Below are positions 24,056 through 32,187 of a DNA stretch of 64,000 bases, piece by piece (positions within the stretch are counted from its first letter, which is position 1; each line of letters opens with the position of its first letter). The notes beneath the pieces were generated by a model. It was given only the letters and a program-made list of their open reading frames with translations, searched no databases and was not told the DNA's origin. A program made the position numbers and the translations under genes. The stretch comes from Polyangiaceae bacterium. Its GTDB lineage: Bacteria; Myxococcota_A; Polyangia; Polyangiales; Polyangiaceae. The stretch is taken from positions 1-64,000 of the forward strand of contig JAJDAH010000238.1 of assembly GCA_029261965.1 (NCBI GenBank), written 5' to 3'.

Positions 24056-25285
24056 ATGGGAAAAATGGCGCGCGCTTGGTCGATCGCTTCGGCATCGTTG
24101 TCTTTCGTCCTGACCCTGGCCGGGTGCAGCGGCGGCACCAGTGACGACGCGGGCGCTGGAGGCGTCGGAGGCGGCGGCGTCGGAGGCGGCAGTGGCGGAG
24201 GCGGGAGTGGCGGAGGCGGAACGGCCGACACTTGCACGCCGGCCGGCAACGTTTGCGACTGCGGTTGCGACTCCGGCTCGACGCTCGTGATGGGGCTGAC
24301 GTGCCCGCAAGGGCCTCCGGGATCCGGCGCGTGTTCGGCAATGTGTTGCTCGCCAGTCAGCGGCGCTGGCGGTACGGGGGCGACCTCGGGAGCCGGGGGC
24401 GCAAGCACGGGCGGAACGGCCGGAACCGGCGGGGGCGGTGGCTCGGCGGCCACGAGCGGAGCCGGCGGAACGGGCGCTGCCGCAGGCGCAGGTGGCACGG
24501 GAGCGAGCGGCGGCTCCCCTGGCACGGGCGGAACGGGCGGCGGCGGCGGAACCGGCGGCTCAGCCACCTTCTGGTCACCGGCACCCGGCACGACTTGGCA
24601 GTGGCAACTCACCGAGACCATCGACACCAGCCTCGACGTCGACATGTACGACATCGATCTCTTCGACGTGCCCCAGTCGACAATCTCCAGCCTCCAGAGC
24701 CAGGGCCGCATCGTGATCTGCTACTTCTCGGCGGGCAGCCGAGAGGAGTGGCGCCCGGATGCGAGCCAGCTCACCAGCTCCGCGGGCAACCCGCTCGACG
24801 GCTGGGACGGGGAGCGGTGGCTGGACACTCGCACTTCCGAAGTTCGGCAAGTCATGCGCTCCCGGCTCGATCTCGCCGCCACCAAGGGCTGCGACGGCGT
24901 CGAGCCCGACAACGTCGACGGCTACACCAACAACACCGGGTTCCCTCTCACCGAGGCCGACCAGCTCGATTACAATCGTTTTCTGGCGTCCGAGGCCCAT
25001 GCCCGCGGCCTCTCGGTCGGACTGAAAAACGCCGTGGACCTGGTCCCCCAACTGGTGTCCGAGTTCGACTGGGCCCTCAACGAAGAGTGCCTCGAGTTCA
25101 ACGAATGCTCGACCACGGCGCCGTTCATCCAGGCCGGCAAAGCCGTTTTCCACGTGGAGTACGTCAATTCACAGTCGCAAGGGTCGAGCAAGATCAACCA
25201 AGTGTGCGGTGATTCGACGACGTCGGGCTTCTCGACACTCGTGAAGACCTTCGATCTCGACGCCTGGCGCCTCGCCTGCCCCTGA
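24056..25285 (+). CDS. GH114-like (endo-alpha-1,4-polygalactosaminidase type) lipoprotein
   Basis: 409 residues. The start may be the ATG at 24056 or 24065. The signal ends LTLAGC. A Gly-rich linker with two small Cys clusters (CTPAGNVCDCGCD, CPQGPPGSGACSAMCC) reaches ~175. The catalytic part is a TIM-barrel of the GH114/TM1410 family: WQWQLTE, MYDIDLFDV, ICYFSAGSREEWRPD, CDGVEPDNVDGY and LNEECLEFNEC. Acidic residues in the last two fit the catalytic positions. Members degrade galactosaminoglycan-type exopolysaccharides; here the substrate is inferred only. Confidence 0.82.
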   Translation: MGKMARAWSIASASLSFVLTLAGCSGGTSDDAGAGGVGGGGVGGGSGGGGSGGGGTADTCTPAGNVCDCGCDSGSTLVMGLTCPQGPPGSGACSAMCCSPVSGAGGTGATSGAGGASTGGTAGTGGGGGSAATSGAGGTGAAAGAGGTGASGGSPGTGGTGGGGGTGGSATFWSPAPGTTWQWQLTETIDTSLDVDMYDIDLFDVPQSTISSLQSQGRIVICYFSAGSREEWRPDASQLTSSAGNPLDGWDGERWLDTRTSEVRQVMRSRLDLAATKGCDGVEPDNVDGYTNNTGFPLTEADQLDYNRFLASEAHARGLSVGLKNAVDLVPQLVSEFDWALNEECLEFNECSTTAPFIQAGKAVFHVEYVNSQSQGSSKINQVCGDSTTSGFSTLVKTFDLDAWRLACP

Positions 25286-26011: not shown

Positions 26012-26602
26012 GTGACCCCGCGTACCGACGAGCTACTCGAGCAAGGCGCCGACGCCCTCGACGCCGGCAACGAGACGCACGCTCGTGACCTCCTCGAGCA
26101 GGCGGTCGAGCTCGATCCAGACGACGCGGACGTGCGGCATCTTCTCGCCTTGGCGTACAGCGCGCTCGGGGACGAAAAACGAGTTCGAGACCAGTTTCTG
26201 CTGGTCCGGCAGCTGGACGCTAGAAACGACGACGCGGCAGGCCCGATCGACCCGGCGCTACTCGACCTGATGCGGGACATCACGGTGCGGGTGATCGAGA
26301 GCCTGCCGAAACGCTTTCGTGAGCCGCTTCGGAACGTGCCCGTTTTTCTCGAACCCCGGCCGTCGGTAGCGTTGGTAGAAGAGGGCTTCGATCCGCGCGC
26401 TCTCGGCGTGTTCGAGGGCCCGCGGGCCTTCGACGACAACACCGCGGCGCTCACGAGAATCGTCATCTTCACCGACAATCTGCTCGCGGAGACTCGGGAC
26501 GAAGAGGAGCTTCGGCGCGAAGTCGAGGTGACGGTGCTGCATGAGGTGGGTCACTATTTCGGACTCGAAGAGGACGACCTCGAACGCCTCGGGCTCGGCT
26601 GA
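26012..26602 (+). CDS. TPR-fused zincin-like metallopeptidase (PF06262 type)
   Basis: 196 residues from a GTG at 26012. Residues ~5-70 form about two TPR units (GADALDAGNETHARDLLEQA, HLLALAYSALGDEK). The rest matches the small zincin-like family with the motif HEVGHYFGLEEDDLERLG: HEVGH at 177-181 and the downstream Gly-acidic cluster. The family is soluble and of unknown substrate; the fused TPR is an addition to the usual ~120-residue protein. It follows the membrane-hairpin gene by 24 bp on the same strand. Its 3' end overlaps the end of the convergent lnt gene by 49 bp. Confidence 0.82.
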   Translation: MTPRTDELLEQGADALDAGNETHARDLLEQAVELDPDDADVRHLLALAYSALGDEKRVRDQFLLVRQLDARNDDAAGPIDPALLDLMRDITVRVIESLPKRFREPLRNVPVFLEPRPSVALVEEGFDPRALGVFEGPRAFDDNTAALTRIVIFTDNLLAETRDEEELRREVEVTVLHEVGHYFGLEEDDLERLGLG

Positions 26603-28089
26603 GACCGCCACCGGACGCGCCGAAACACGAGCGGGCCGAACGCCAGCGCCGCCCAGACGAACGACCACCACAAACCCACGCGCCGGTAGATCGTCGGGAC
26701 GTCGTGCAGCGGCACGTCGGCCGTGAGCTGTCCCACCTCCCACCAGTCGAGCTGCCCGAGCACGCGACCGTAGGCGTCGGTGGCGTAGCTCAGCCCCACC
26801 TGCCCGGCCCGCACCAGGGGTAAGCCCACCTCGATCGCGCGCATCCGCCCCTGCTGAGAGTGGGTCCACGCGATCGGCGCCCAACGCATGCCCCCGTCGT
26901 CGGACACGATGGTCAACAGCTTGGCCTTGCTTCGCGCCGCAAAGAGCCCCGCTTGCGGGTGCATCGACTCGTAACAGACCATCACACCGAGTCGAACCTC
27001 GCCCACTTGCGCCAGGGCCCAGCGCTGCGCGGGTTGATGGCCGACTTCGATGAACGGCACGAGTTGCCGCTTGACGATCAGCCCGCGCAGGTTCGGTCGA
27101 CCGAGCGGGTCGGGAGTGACTACGCCGACCCCGTTGCGAGAGCCGAGCCCAGACCGCTTGCTGAAGCTCGCGCCGACGAGCAGCGACGTGTGCTCGGGGA
27201 TCTTCGTCGCTCCGAGCGTCGTGATGCGCCTCACCCCCGCCGTCGTTGGCTCGACGTTCCAGTTGAACGTCGTTTCGGGAAACAGCACGATGTCCGGCGC
27301 GGGCTTCTGCGCCAGCGCCTCCCGGTAGAGAAATCCGTAGTGCTCCTCGATGAGGCGCTTGAACGGGCCGGGCCCCGACGCCAGCGTATACAACCACGGA
27401 GGGATGGACCCCTGGAGCGCGCTGACCTTCACCGATGCCGAGGCTTCCGGCGCATTCTTCACCCGCATCCACCCGCCGAACGTCGCCAGCCCGCAAATGG
27501 CCAGTCCCGGCGCCCACTGGATTGCACGAGCCCATCGACGTTCGCCCCACAGAGCAGCAAGGGGACCGGCCACGCAAAATCCGACCCAGAAAACCAAACC
27601 AGAAAGCCCCGTCGAGCCGACGACGCTCGCTACCTGCGCGACAGGCAGCTCGTCGGCGAGCATGCCCCCGAAAAAGAATGGGTAAGCAAACGTACCGAGA
27701 GAGCGAAGATTCTCAATCAGCGCCCATAGCGCACCCACTGAGAGCGTCGCGACGACGCCGCCGCGCAACAAGAGCGGCATGGCCAGGGCGCCGAACGCGC
27801 TCCACACCAGAGTGTGGTAGCCGATGACGACGTAGTAGACCGACGGCGCGTAGTACGCGACGCCCCACTGCTGCACGCCCGCAAGCACGCCGGCAAAGCC
27901 GCTGAGCAACGCGGCGCGAAACACTGCCCGTCGCAGGGGCGTCCCCTCCGGTGTGGAGAGCATCAGCATCAACCCCCAGACGACGGCGCTCAGCCACATG
28001 AAGTGCCCGGCGGTCATCGCCCCCAACCCCTGGGTCAAAGATGCGGTGGCGGCGAGCACCCAGGGCAGCGCCCGACGTACACGAGTCAC
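26554..28089 (-). CDS. lnt: apolipoprotein N-acyltransferase
   Basis: 511 residues from a GTG at 28089, which overlaps the upstream stop as GTGA; the longer frame (to 28146) would intrude on the upstream gene. Seven or so membrane helices are followed by the nitrilase-like domain with the triad Glu272 (LFPETTF), Lys340 (LIVKRQLVPF) and Cys372 (VMVCYESM). Lnt adds the third acyl chain to the N-terminal Cys of lipoproteins. It is the last gene of an operon whose first two products are lipoproteins, which makes a dedicated maturation role attractive. Whether it is the only Lnt of the genome cannot be seen. Confidence 0.93.
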   Translation of the reverse strand: MTRVRRALPWVLAATASLTQGLGAMTAGHFMWLSAVVWGLMLMLSTPEGTPLRRAVFRAALLSGFAGVLAGVQQWGVAYYAPSVYYVVIGYHTLVWSAFGALAMPLLLRGGVVATLSVGALWALIENLRSLGTFAYPFFFGGMLADELPVAQVASVVGSTGLSGLVFWVGFCVAGPLAALWGERRWARAIQWAPGLAICGLATFGGWMRVKNAPEASASVKVSALQGSIPPWLYTLASGPGPFKRLIEEHYGFLYREALAQKPAPDIVLFPETTFNWNVEPTTAGVRRITTLGATKIPEHTSLLVGASFSKRSGLGSRNGVGVVTPDPLGRPNLRGLIVKRQLVPFIEVGHQPAQRWALAQVGEVRLGVMVCYESMHPQAGLFAARSKAKLLTIVSDDGGMRWAPIAWTHSQQGRMRAIEVGLPLVRAGQVGLSYATDAYGRVLGQLDWWEVGQLTADVPLHDVPTIYRRVGLWWSFVWAALAFGPLVFRRVRWRSQPSPRRSRSSSSSPK

Positions 28090-28460
28090 GGATTTCGCAT
28101 CACTAGCCCTTTGCCCGGGTCGACGTAAAGCCGACGCGGGGGCCAACCCCCGAGATCGATCTCACGATCCTGCTTGACCGTGGATTCGTCGAAGAGCCCG
28201 ATGGTCAGCGCGGGGTAGTGTTTCTCGAGCCAGCCGAGCAACTGCTGCCGGGTCGCGTCCTCCGGCGGTGGCTCCACCGTCGGGCTCGCGTACCACGCCG
28301 CGGTTTCGTCAGCCGGAGGCGGTGCCCACGGAGCGGACAGCGCGTGCATTCCCGCGTAACCGAGGTCCTTTTTGGCGCTCGTCCAAGCCTGATTCGAGAC
28401 GGCCCAGAGCACTACCGCCGCCCCAACGACGACAGACGCCGTCGCGACTGCTTCCCGCAT
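28086..28460 (-). CDS. small single-pass membrane protein
   Basis: 124 residues from the ATG at 28460. One hydrophobic helix at ~7-25 (VATASVVVGAAVVLWAV) anchors a periplasmic domain of ~100 residues with Trp- and Pro-rich patches (APWAPPPADETAAWY, LGWLEKHYPALTIGLFDES). I recognise no family. It overlaps the stop of the lipoprotein gene by one base (TGATG) and lnt by four, so it is translated with both. Confidence 0.75.
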   Translation of the reverse strand: MREAVATASVVVGAAVVLWAVSNQAWTSAKKDLGYAGMHALSAPWAPPPADETAAWYASPTVEPPPEDATRQQLLGWLEKHYPALTIGLFDESTVKQDREIDLGGWPPRRLYVDPGKGLVMRNP

Positions 28461-29071
28461 CAGAATATGCTGCAGAACCCGGCGCAGAACCCGTTGGCAC
28501 ACCCGCCCGGGCCGGCAACGGCATTGAAATCCGTCGACCCGTTGGGCTCAGCCTGGATGCAATTCGACGCGCATTGGCCATCGACCGCACCCTGCGAGAT
28601 GCAGCTCGACTTGATGCAGCCGAGGATCGAGACGCACGAGGCGTTGTCCTCGCACTTGATGCATGGGTTGTTGCAGAACATCCGGATGCAGCTGTCGCAC
28701 GAGTCGATGTCGGTGCTGAGGGTGCACATGCGCGCCGGGCCGCCACCAGAGCCCGCGCCTGCCGCGCCCGATGCCCCCGCGCTACCGCCCGTGCCAGGCG
28801 ATCCGGCGCCGCCGCCCGTGCCGGGTGATCCCGCGCTACCTCCGGTACCCGTCGTGCCAGCGTCACCTCCCGTGCCGCCGCCAGCGTCGCCGCCGGTCCC
28901 CGTCGAGTTACCCGTGCCGCCGGTGCCGTCACCACCTGTGCCGCCGGTGGCGGCAGTGCTCCCGCCCGTGCTTGCGGGCGGAGGAGGCGGCGACTCCGTG
29001 CTCGAGCAAGCAGTCATCACCGCGGTGACGACGAACGCCGAGAGAAGTGGAGCAACGCGAGGCATCATCAT
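28460..29071 (-). CDS. Cys-rich lipoprotein of the lnt operon
   Basis: 203 residues starting MMMPRV. The signal ends VMTAC. A Gly/Thr/Ser linker follows to ~110. The C-terminal ~95 residues hold 16 Cys (CDSCIRMFCNNPCIKCED, CVSILGCIKSSC, CAGFC), a pattern of small disulfide domains in secreted myxobacterial proteins. Its start overlaps the stop of the upstream VWA gene. Function unknown. Confidence 0.75.
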   Translation of the reverse strand: MMMPRVAPLLSAFVVTAVMTACSSTESPPPPPASTGGSTAATGGTGGDGTGGTGNSTGTGGDAGGGTGGDAGTTGTGGSAGSPGTGGGAGSPGTGGSAGASGAAGAGSGGGPARMCTLSTDIDSCDSCIRMFCNNPCIKCEDNASCVSILGCIKSSCISQGAVDGQCASNCIQAEPNGSTDFNAVAGPGGCANGFCAGFCSIF

Positions 29072-32000
29072 TCGCTGAACTCGCAGGTGAGCTGGAGGTC
29101 CCAGTCCGACAGGGTCGGGCCTTGCATCATGTCCGAGGAGGGGTTGAGCGTCGCTCGAATGCGCAAATAGTTGCCGTTGCGCGGGATCCCGGCGTTGGCC
29201 AACGTCGTATCCACCACCGCGTCACCAGGCTGGAAGTTGAGCGGGCCACCCACCTGAGTGTCCGTACCGATGCCCGCGTTGCAAATGTTGGGCAATGACG
29301 CGCAGGCCTGGTTGGCCGCCAGAGCGTTCGTGAACTCGAGCGGTACCTCCGCACTCAGGTTGGTGACGTTGCCCATCGAGTCGCGGTCACCCGTGGCGAC
29401 GGTGAACGAGATGTTCGTGTCGGACGGGGTCATCGTGGTCCACGACCAGTCGCCCCAGACCGGCTGCTGAGCGCTGCCGCACGCGGTGGCCGCGTCGTAC
29501 TCGAAGATCGCCGAGCCCGCCATGAGGGTGTTGTTCTGTACGCACTGGTAGAGAATGTCGACACCAGAGCTGGTGTCGTTCTGCACCAACGAGCAGGCGG
29601 CCGGGCACAGGTTGACGGTCGTCGGATTGACGTTGTCGTCGTAGTACCACTCGAGGCCCGCGCAGAGAGTCGCGTCGTTGACCTTCGTCAGCGAAACCTC
29701 GACCGCCGGGGTGCCCGCGGTCACGAGAATCTGCGGCGAGTTGATGTCGATCATGCCCATCGCCGGTGGTGTCGGCAGAGCGAAGGCGCAGTTGAGCGAG
29801 CGCTGACGAATAGCCGTGAGAGCGTCGATGAATCCGGCAGGGTTGCCGGTGTCCACGATGAACGCGTTGAACTGGTTGCCCGAGCCGGCCTGGGCGATCG
29901 TGTCGAGGTTGGCGAGACTCGTCGGATTGTCGGTGATGCCGATGACGAAGGTGTCGATGCCCGCGGCGTAGCCCGCCCCGGCGATCGCCGCCGTGCCCGG
30001 CACATCGCTGTTGCAGCCCGCAGCCGTGTTCGACGGCTGACCGTCGGTCACGAGCACGACGATTTGCTTCCGGTCGGGCACCGTGGGCGCTCGAGCCAAG
30101 GCGTGGTCGATGGCGCCCTGGAGCGACGGCTCGGTCGGCGTCGCGCCGGAGGGAATGACCTTCGCGAGCGAGCCCATCACGTTGTTCACGTGGGCATCCG
30201 CCGCGCCGGGAAGGATGTCGTAGTCGACCCCGGCGGTTGCGGCGAAGTTGACGTAGCCCGACGGCGTGCACTGGGTGAGGGAGCTGGCGTAGTACTCGTA
30301 GCTACCGAACGCGCCATCGGCGCCCACGCAGTCGCCGTACGCACCACTGGTTCTGGGATCCGGGCAGAATGGCCACGGCGTCGGGTCCCATTGAGAACAG
30401 AACAAGCCACAAGAGCTGTCGACACCGCACGTCTGGCAGCCGTTTGGCACCGGGAAGTAGCTGATGCCGAAGCCCATGCCAACCGATTCGGAGTTGCGAA
30501 TGAAGTTCCTGAGCGCCACCGTCGCGCCCTGCCATCTCGTGACGCCGTCGACTTCGGTGCCCATCGACCCCGACCGATCCATCATGACGAACATGTCGAG
30601 AGGGCCTGGGTCGGCTCGGTTCGATCCCGAGCTGCAAGAATCTCGGCATCCGTACACAATTTCGATGGAAGCGGTGAGATCGGCCTTGGCCGTCGAGCAC
30701 GTCGTCGGGCACAGAACGATCTTCGGCCCATTCGTATCGAACACGAAGCCATCCCCCGCGCCGCACGCGCCGAGAGAGGTGACCTTGGGAATTGCCGTAC
30801 CCGACAGCGAAACGGTCGTCGTCGCGGGATCGATGACGCCCATCGGTGGCGTCGGCACGTCGAAATCGCACGAGAGCGATTGATCGCGAATGGCGTTCAG
30901 CGCATCGACCAGCGCCGCCTGAGCCCCGGCGCTGCTGCCGCTGATGATGGTCGCGTCGCGCGCGCCACCGCTGCCAGCGCGGGCCAGAATGTTCAAGAAA
31001 TCGAGGTTGTTCCCCGTGTCGACGCCAATGACGAACGTCTCGATCGAAGTCGACGAGAAGAAGAAGTTCTCCACGAGCGTGGCTACTTCCTGAACCCGGC
31101 ACGCGGTTTCTTGCTTGGCGCTCTTGCCCTTCTTGCCGCCGCAGTTGCCACAGTCGGTCGGGAGACCATCGGTGACGAGAACCGCCACGCACTTTCGATC
31201 GGGAGCGCCAGAAGCCCACACCGCGGCGTCGAGCAGCGCTCCGTTCATTGCCGGCAGCGTGGGAGTCGAACCGCCGGGAACGATCGCGCCGATTTGCGAG
31301 ATGACGGCCGGCGCGACGCCGGGCAGGAGCCCAAGCGGCACGGAGAGGTTGGCTCCCGAATATTGGACCGCGTTGCACTGGTCCAACGGGCTGGGGAAGA
31401 AGTCGAGCCCAGCGGTCATGCCGTCCAATCCCGGATCCGCAATGAAGGTCTGGATCGCGCCGGAGACGTTGAGCCACGGGGCGCCCGCCATCGAGCCCGA
31501 CTTGTCGACCATCAACACCATGCAGAGCGGATCGCGCTGCGCAGTCTGGGGCGTCATGCCGCACGACGAGGGCGGACCGCTATCGCCGGGTCCGGCGCCG
31601 GTGGGGACGAGTTCCACGCCGCCCGGCCCAACCATCGTGTTCGGGTCGGTGGTGGGCGTGACGGTCGAAGGAAAGTGCACGCAAAACGGATCGCAGGGAT
31701 TGGCGACACACGGCGATGGCATCGTGCCGACCTGGTGGAGTCGATAATTCGAGCTCGGAACCGACATCGTGCTCATCGAGGTCGGTCGGCACTCGCTCCA
31801 CACTCCGCCTTCACACGCGCGGTCGCCCACGACGCAGGTGACCGTCTCGCCGACTTTGCTGGACACGGAGCCACAGCTGACGACCTGCCCCTCGGACGGG
31901 CACTCGCAGCCGTCGTTGGGCGTATTGCAGCGGTAGCATTCGTCGGTGACCGAGGCGTCGTTGTCGTCGCAATCGGCGCCGCTGGCGCAGTTGGCGCCAA

Positions 32001-32187
32001 AACTGTCGTTGTCACCGTCCTGACAAATCGCCGGTCCGCCCCCACCGGTGCCGCCGACGACCACCGGACCCCCGGTCGGCGGCAGACGATCTCCGTCGCT
32101 GCAGCCGGTATATATGCCGACGAGCGCAAGGGCTCCGGCAGCCAGGAGACCGAGGCGCACGCCGAGTTGATGGATCGCAGTCGTCAT
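29068..32187 (-). CDS. large lipoprotein with two VWA domains
   Basis: 1039 residues from the ATG at 32187. The signal ends GIYTGC. A MopE-like acidic metal-binding stretch (DGDNDSFGANC, GADCDDND) and a Cys-rich region precede the first VWA domain, which has a MIDAS DKSGSM followed by VLVTDGLPTD. A second VWA has DRSGSM and VLVTDGQPSN. The C-terminal ~200 residues are beta-rich with several Cys pairs. VWA domains bind ligands through a MIDAS metal and often mediate adhesion. It is the first gene of the four-gene operon ending in lnt. Confidence 0.88.
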   Translation of the reverse strand: MTTAIHQLGVRLGLLAAGALALVGIYTGCSDGDRLPPTGGPVVVGGTGGGGPAICQDGDNDSFGANCASGADCDDNDASVTDECYRCNTPNDGCECPSEGQVVSCGSVSSKVGETVTCVVGDRACEGGVWSECRPTSMSTMSVPSSNYRLHQVGTMPSPCVANPCDPFCVHFPSTVTPTTDPNTMVGPGGVELVPTGAGPGDSGPPSSCGMTPQTAQRDPLCMVLMVDKSGSMAGAPWLNVSGAIQTFIADPGLDGMTAGLDFFPSPLDQCNAVQYSGANLSVPLGLLPGVAPAVISQIGAIVPGGSTPTLPAMNGALLDAAVWASGAPDRKCVAVLVTDGLPTDCGNCGGKKGKSAKQETACRVQEVATLVENFFFSSTSIETFVIGVDTGNNLDFLNILARAGSGGARDATIISGSSAGAQAALVDALNAIRDQSLSCDFDVPTPPMGVIDPATTTVSLSGTAIPKVTSLGACGAGDGFVFDTNGPKIVLCPTTCSTAKADLTASIEIVYGCRDSCSSGSNRADPGPLDMFVMMDRSGSMGTEVDGVTRWQGATVALRNFIRNSESVGMGFGISYFPVPNGCQTCGVDSSCGLFCSQWDPTPWPFCPDPRTSGAYGDCVGADGAFGSYEYYASSLTQCTPSGYVNFAATAGVDYDILPGAADAHVNNVMGSLAKVIPSGATPTEPSLQGAIDHALARAPTVPDRKQIVVLVTDGQPSNTAAGCNSDVPGTAAIAGAGYAAGIDTFVIGITDNPTSLANLDTIAQAGSGNQFNAFIVDTGNPAGFIDALTAIRQRSLNCAFALPTPPAMGMIDINSPQILVTAGTPAVEVSLTKVNDATLCAGLEWYYDDNVNPTTVNLCPAACSLVQNDTSSGVDILYQCVQNNTLMAGSAIFEYDAATACGSAQQPVWGDWSWTTMTPSDTNISFTVATGDRDSMGNVTNLSAEVPLEFTNALAANQACASLPNICNAGIGTDTQVGGPLNFQPGDAVVDTTLANAGIPRNGNYLRIRATLNPSSDMMQGPTLSDWDLQLTCEFSE

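Follow-up and report, generated by a model that had tools for sequence, protein, structure and literature searches.

The window analysed here, a stretch of 64,000 nucleotides from a Polyangiaceae bacterium (a relative of soil bacteria), encodes an Lnt-like N-acyltransferase, P0001, which by its sequence and its place in the tree belongs to a distinct clade of Lnt proteins without a lid and is a paralogue of the canonical Lnt. It is very probably a specialised lid-less enzyme. The P0001 gene stands at the end of a row that also encodes two predicted lipoproteins and a one-helix membrane protein. We consider it an evenly balanced proposition that this operon provides a specialised second Lnt-type enzyme working with the one-helix protein, for which the two lipoproteins may serve as acceptors. 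The catalysis of the lid-less Lnt, its complex and its acceptors are what we infer.

The four-gene row and its counterpart in a second genus

The window lies on contig C155 of an incomplete assembly (9.6 Mb, 96% complete). Its open reading frames bore out the earlier note, which had described four minus-strand genes overlapping stop to start, from 32187 down to 26554. The first gene (29068..32187, minus strand) codes for P0004 (1039 aa), in which two VWA domains were recognised (PF00092/PF13519). It is followed by the gene for P0003 (28460..29071, minus strand), a protein of 203 aa with a Gly/Thr/Ser linker and a C-terminal Cys-rich domain. The third gene (28086..28460, minus strand) encodes P0002, a putative partner subunit of 124 aa with a hydrophobic helix at residues 4-22; its start is ambiguous and can be placed at ATG 28460 or GTG 28502. 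The last gene (26554..28089, minus strand) encodes P0001 (511 aa). The junctions are short stop-start overlaps with the sequences ATGA, TGATG and GTGA. No promoter-like site was found for the row, and terminator-like sites were no more frequent than in shuffled sequences.

Both P0004 and P0003 are predicted lipoproteins, each with an N-terminal signal that carries a lipobox Cys. As judged by eye, the lipobox-like motif is IYTG-C in P0004, with an atypical Tyr at position -3, and VMTA-C in P0003. Together with the domain matches and the alignment of P0001 with E. coli Lnt, these motifs confirmed the gene identities proposed earlier: a two-VWA lipoprotein, a Cys-rich lipoprotein, a one-helix protein and an Lnt-like protein with a Glu-Lys-Cys triad.

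The same four genes in the same order were found in a member of another genus, the MAG of Polyangiaceae bacterium SJ329 (JADLEQ010000001.1, hereafter G032). The identity between the two blocks is 51% for the Lnt, 50% for the VWA protein and 40-41% for the one-helix protein; the Cys-rich lipoprotein is also present in G032, and the lipobox-like motifs of the two lipoprotein counterparts are VSTA-C and LAAG-C. The genes that flank the block in G032 are unrelated to those around the window block. A chance neighbourhood is unlikely, since gene content and order are kept despite different flanks, and the four-gene unit therefore stands as a real association. The block is rare: of the family's 108 genomes, only the window genome and G032 have the P0002 gene. 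P0004 belongs to an extensive VWA family with numerous copies in each genome, of which only the G032 protein matched it in full length and with a high score. A search of the genome contigs and viral contigs with the single P0001 sequence gave no match, and a search with a two-row alignment of P0001 and its G032 counterpart gave G032 as the sole match. The whole operon was also considered as a general unit and rejected; members of the VWA family mostly occur without lnt, and most lid-less loci are without lipoproteins.

Two neighbouring genes were noted. The Lnt gene runs into a convergent gene at 26012-26602, which encodes a protein with TPR and a zincin-like metallopeptidase domain (PF06262); the ends of the two genes overlap by about 49 bases. 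At 24056-25285 lies the gene of a lipoprotein-like protein that combines a GH114 glycoside hydrolase domain (305 bits) with an N-terminal part rich in Gly and Cys.

The Lnt paralogue without a lid

P0001 scored 60.1 bits with the CN_hydrolase profile of Pfam, which is over the cut-off, and 21.7 bits with LNT_N against a cut-off of 27.1. With the NCBIfam lnt equivalog TIGR00546 (cut-off 132.9), the score was 127.5 bits for the protein and 137.4 bits in a six-frame search. In the alignment with E. coli Lnt, for which the reference sequence was taken from the MG1655 record, Glu272, Lys340 and Cys372 of P0001 occupy the triad positions, and Glu348, Tyr373 and Glu374 are also aligned. The equivalents of E. 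coli Glu267, Lys335, Glu343, Cys387, Tyr388 and Glu389 are thus kept. The domain order of P0001 appears to be that of E. coli Lnt (TIGR00546, PF20154 + PF00795), with which it also shares the multi-pass N-terminal part and the C-terminal helix.

The difference lies between the Glu343 and Cys387 equivalents, where about 20 residues are absent. In E. coli Lnt this is the place of helix alpha5-6 and, after it, of the lid loop (F357-Q372) between strands beta5 and beta6, so that the Lys-Cys spacing is 32 residues in P0001 versus 52 in E. coli Lnt. The lid was proposed to cover the cavity and to contact the membrane, and the F357A/F358A double mutant of the E. coli enzyme is inactive (PMC5500890); the same stretch is called arm 3 in PMC5500888. 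Unlike in E. coli Lnt, W415 and F416 (NDAWF motif) are replaced by Gly and Met in P0001, and the NNG motif by GQxG. The AlphaFold2 model of P0001, built from a two-row alignment, was poor (mean pLDDT 40), and the missing lid is for this reason read from the sequence.

A profile of the window and G032 enzymes (A3) retrieved full-length relatives from the families f38, f56 and f49 of the same phylum. The resulting lid-less set comprised 21 sequences: window, G032 and 19 relatives. The Lys-Cys spacing is 32 in the window, in G032 and in 18 of the 19 relatives, and 33 in the remaining one, versus 50-57 in E. coli Lnt and in canonical and other lid-bearing Lnt paralogues. The NDAWF and TNSG motifs are altered across the clade. 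In an Lnt tree computed with the motif columns left out, all 21 sequences fell on one side of a branch, with support of 83/92 as drawn and 90/89 when scored as a group, and in 200/200 bootstrap trees; within it, the window and G032 enzymes grouped with the f56 members at 99/98.

The loss of substrate-side elements could be read as a sign that P0001 is a non-catalytic or regulatory homologue; subsidiary Lnt homologues of this sort are known, among them Lnt2 of Streptomyces scabies and BCG_2279c (PMC3850990). This explanation is very improbable, as 21/21 sequences retain the Glu-Lys-Cys triad together with equivalents of Glu343 and Glu389, whereas BCG_2279c has lost the Cys.

A six-frame search with TIGR00546 revealed four Lnt-like genes in the window genome: on contig C401 (253 bits), on C42 (141 bits), in the window (137 bits) and on C310 (64 + 42 bits, in two pieces). 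The gene on C401 is the canonical lnt. The earlier note had suggested counting the lnt genes and had named a sole lnt, equally required for all lipoproteins, as the finding that would speak against a dedicated role; with four Lnt-like genes and a canonical copy elsewhere, that objection falls away. A second lnt elsewhere, according to the note, would support specialisation. The second copy does exist and its enzyme is divergent, but on its own it says little, since several Lnt copies per genome are common in Polyangiaceae, where the extra copies form separate clades, each with its own neighbour genes. Of the 15 tested genomes with a lid-less enzyme, 13 also have another Lnt match of the lid-bearing type, and the two genomes without one are assemblies 65% and 81% complete.

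The frequency of extra copies, and the conserved neighbours that other paralogue clades have as well, would also suit a redundant Lnt with accidental operon neighbours. We regard such redundancy as improbable, because one would not expect a simple backup copy to have a fixed partner gene and to share its changes of lid and motifs with a whole clade, and the four-gene block is kept at 40-51% identity.

Two of the other clades resemble the lid-less one in being extra Polyangiaceae Lnt copies with clade-specific upstream neighbours (clades B and C), but they are separate clades that keep the lid and the NDAW/NDSW motif. In clade B, the gene of the lid-bearing paralogue is preceded by that of a different one-helix protein, and in most cases the two overlap (L080, L086, L088, L091, L112); a secreted protein of unknown role is encoded nearby. 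In another lid-bearing clade, the gene ahead of the Lnt gene encodes a secreted protein with an NCPPGSWFC-like motif (L081, L084, L085, L087, L090, L113). The Lnt-like protein on contig C310 of the window genome (G000, L053:5756-7753) carries a Peptidase_C39 domain (66.5 bits) as a C-terminal fusion and has a short Lys-Cys spacing of 31; its gene belongs to a row of overlapping genes for a lipoprotein-like protein, a one-helix protein and a 321-aa membrane protein.

The one-helix protein as a putative partner

The earlier note had read the coupling to two lipoproteins as a hint at dedicated acylation or at a jointly assembled surface complex. In the wider clade, however, the constant neighbour of the lid-less enzyme is a one-helix protein and not a lipoprotein. 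Its gene was found immediately upstream and on the same strand in all 19 usable lid-less loci of f38, f49 and f56, as counted in the fetched stretches around lnt genes; one of these loci breaks off at a contig end before the helix is reached. The encoded proteins consist of a single hydrophobic helix and a soluble part of about 100-150 residues. The f38 and f49 partners are homologous (hhalign probability 98.7%), and their common profile (A5) matched 16 genomes at E < 1e-10, in 16/16 cases beside a lid-less enzyme. These include G348, where the enzyme gene beside the partner runs off the contig within its start (judged by eye), and G193, where the partner is split over two contigs.

The A5 profile gave no match in the window genome or G032, and homology of the f56 partner to the f38/f49 partners was not demonstrable with hhalign. 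As homology of P0002 to the f38, f49 and f56 partners was likewise not established (hhalign probability < 2%), its role as a partner is assigned by analogy, from position and layout. No similarity was detected by hhalign between P0002 and the one-helix neighbour of clade B. The AlphaFold2 model of P0002, from a two-row alignment, is of low confidence (pLDDT 62.6).

The fixed gene pair is consistent with a two-subunit enzyme made of the Lnt-like protein and the one-helix protein, to which we give about an even chance. In this model the one-helix protein would bind the enzyme, its soluble domain facing the periplasm. As there is no amphipathic lid of the kind proposed to lie over the cavity in E. 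coli and to hold it at the membrane, the one-helix protein could stand in for the lid, or else it may select the acceptor. Slightly short of even is our confidence in the broader proposal that the lid-less Lnt and its one-helix partner represent a new class of two-subunit envelope acyltransferases, in which the partner replaces the lid and sets the acceptor.

Candidate acceptors and known systems

In the window and G032, the acceptors may include the two co-encoded lipoproteins, which we put forward tentatively. By hhalign (94.5%, E 8e-8), the Cys-rich domain of P0003 is related to lipoproteins encoded beside the canonical lnt of two other genomes. It was found only beside lnt genes, namely in the window, in G032 and at the canonical lnt of two congeneric genomes, in a survey of 558 kb of fetched stretches that were centred on lnt genes and hence biased. 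These matches hint at a link between the P0003 lipoprotein family and Lnt; an enrichment beside lnt is not provable from such lnt-centred sampling. The idea that a ribosomal-peptide cluster such as that in PMC12636315 makes P0003 as its product was also considered, and no support for this was seen. Downstream of the canonical lnt, Polyangiaceae usually have a lipoprotein gene whose product contains a Cys-rich domain, in most cases preceded by a Gly-rich linker (L051:8054-8617, L102, L103, L105, L108, L110, L111).

Beside most lid-less loci of the other families lipoprotein genes are absent, and the two lipoproteins may thus be passengers. It is accordingly possible, at a likelihood that we put well under even, that the enzyme and the one-helix protein form one unit that acylates different targets, such as the N-terminus of some other protein or an envelope lipid with an amine, while the lipoproteins share only the transcript. 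Such acceptors would fit the change of the substrate-side motifs with retention of the catalytic residues, and the presence of a canonical Lnt for the ordinary lipoproteins. They would fit less well with the two lipoproteins staying with the pair in two genera despite differing flanks, and with one f49 locus (genome G276) in which the gene of an 818-aa lipoprotein lies directly upstream (L169 9145-11601).

A dedicated Lnt-like enzyme would have a precedent in AatD of enteroaggregative E. coli, the N-acyltransferase for Aap (PMC7478709). As proposed for the window enzyme, AatD is an operon-encoded Lnt relative that serves particular exported proteins and occurs alongside a canonical Lnt. By the description in that paper, on which our comparison is based, its operon holds an exporter, and its Lys268 and Cys316 are 48 residues apart, so that AatD has no comparable shortening. 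Lnt2 of S. scabies and BCG_2279c of Mycobacterium bovis BCG resemble the window enzyme as second Lnt homologues of subsidiary or unknown role; in the part of PMC3850990 that was seen, neither a one-helix partner nor a lipoprotein operon is described for them.

Our search of open-licence papers found no description of an Lnt in Polyangiaceae, of a lid-less Lnt or of an Lnt with a one-helix partner, and the novelty is provisional. Lnt is regarded as a single-chain housekeeping enzyme that requires its lid loop. If the proposed reading is true, the core for acyl transfer can be put to new use in combination with a separate subunit, and some bacteria acylate chosen envelope proteins through dedicated enzymes. 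A two-subunit class would mean that single lipoproteins or other envelope molecules have an acylation enzyme of their own. The lid-less clade would also offer a natural test of lid function.
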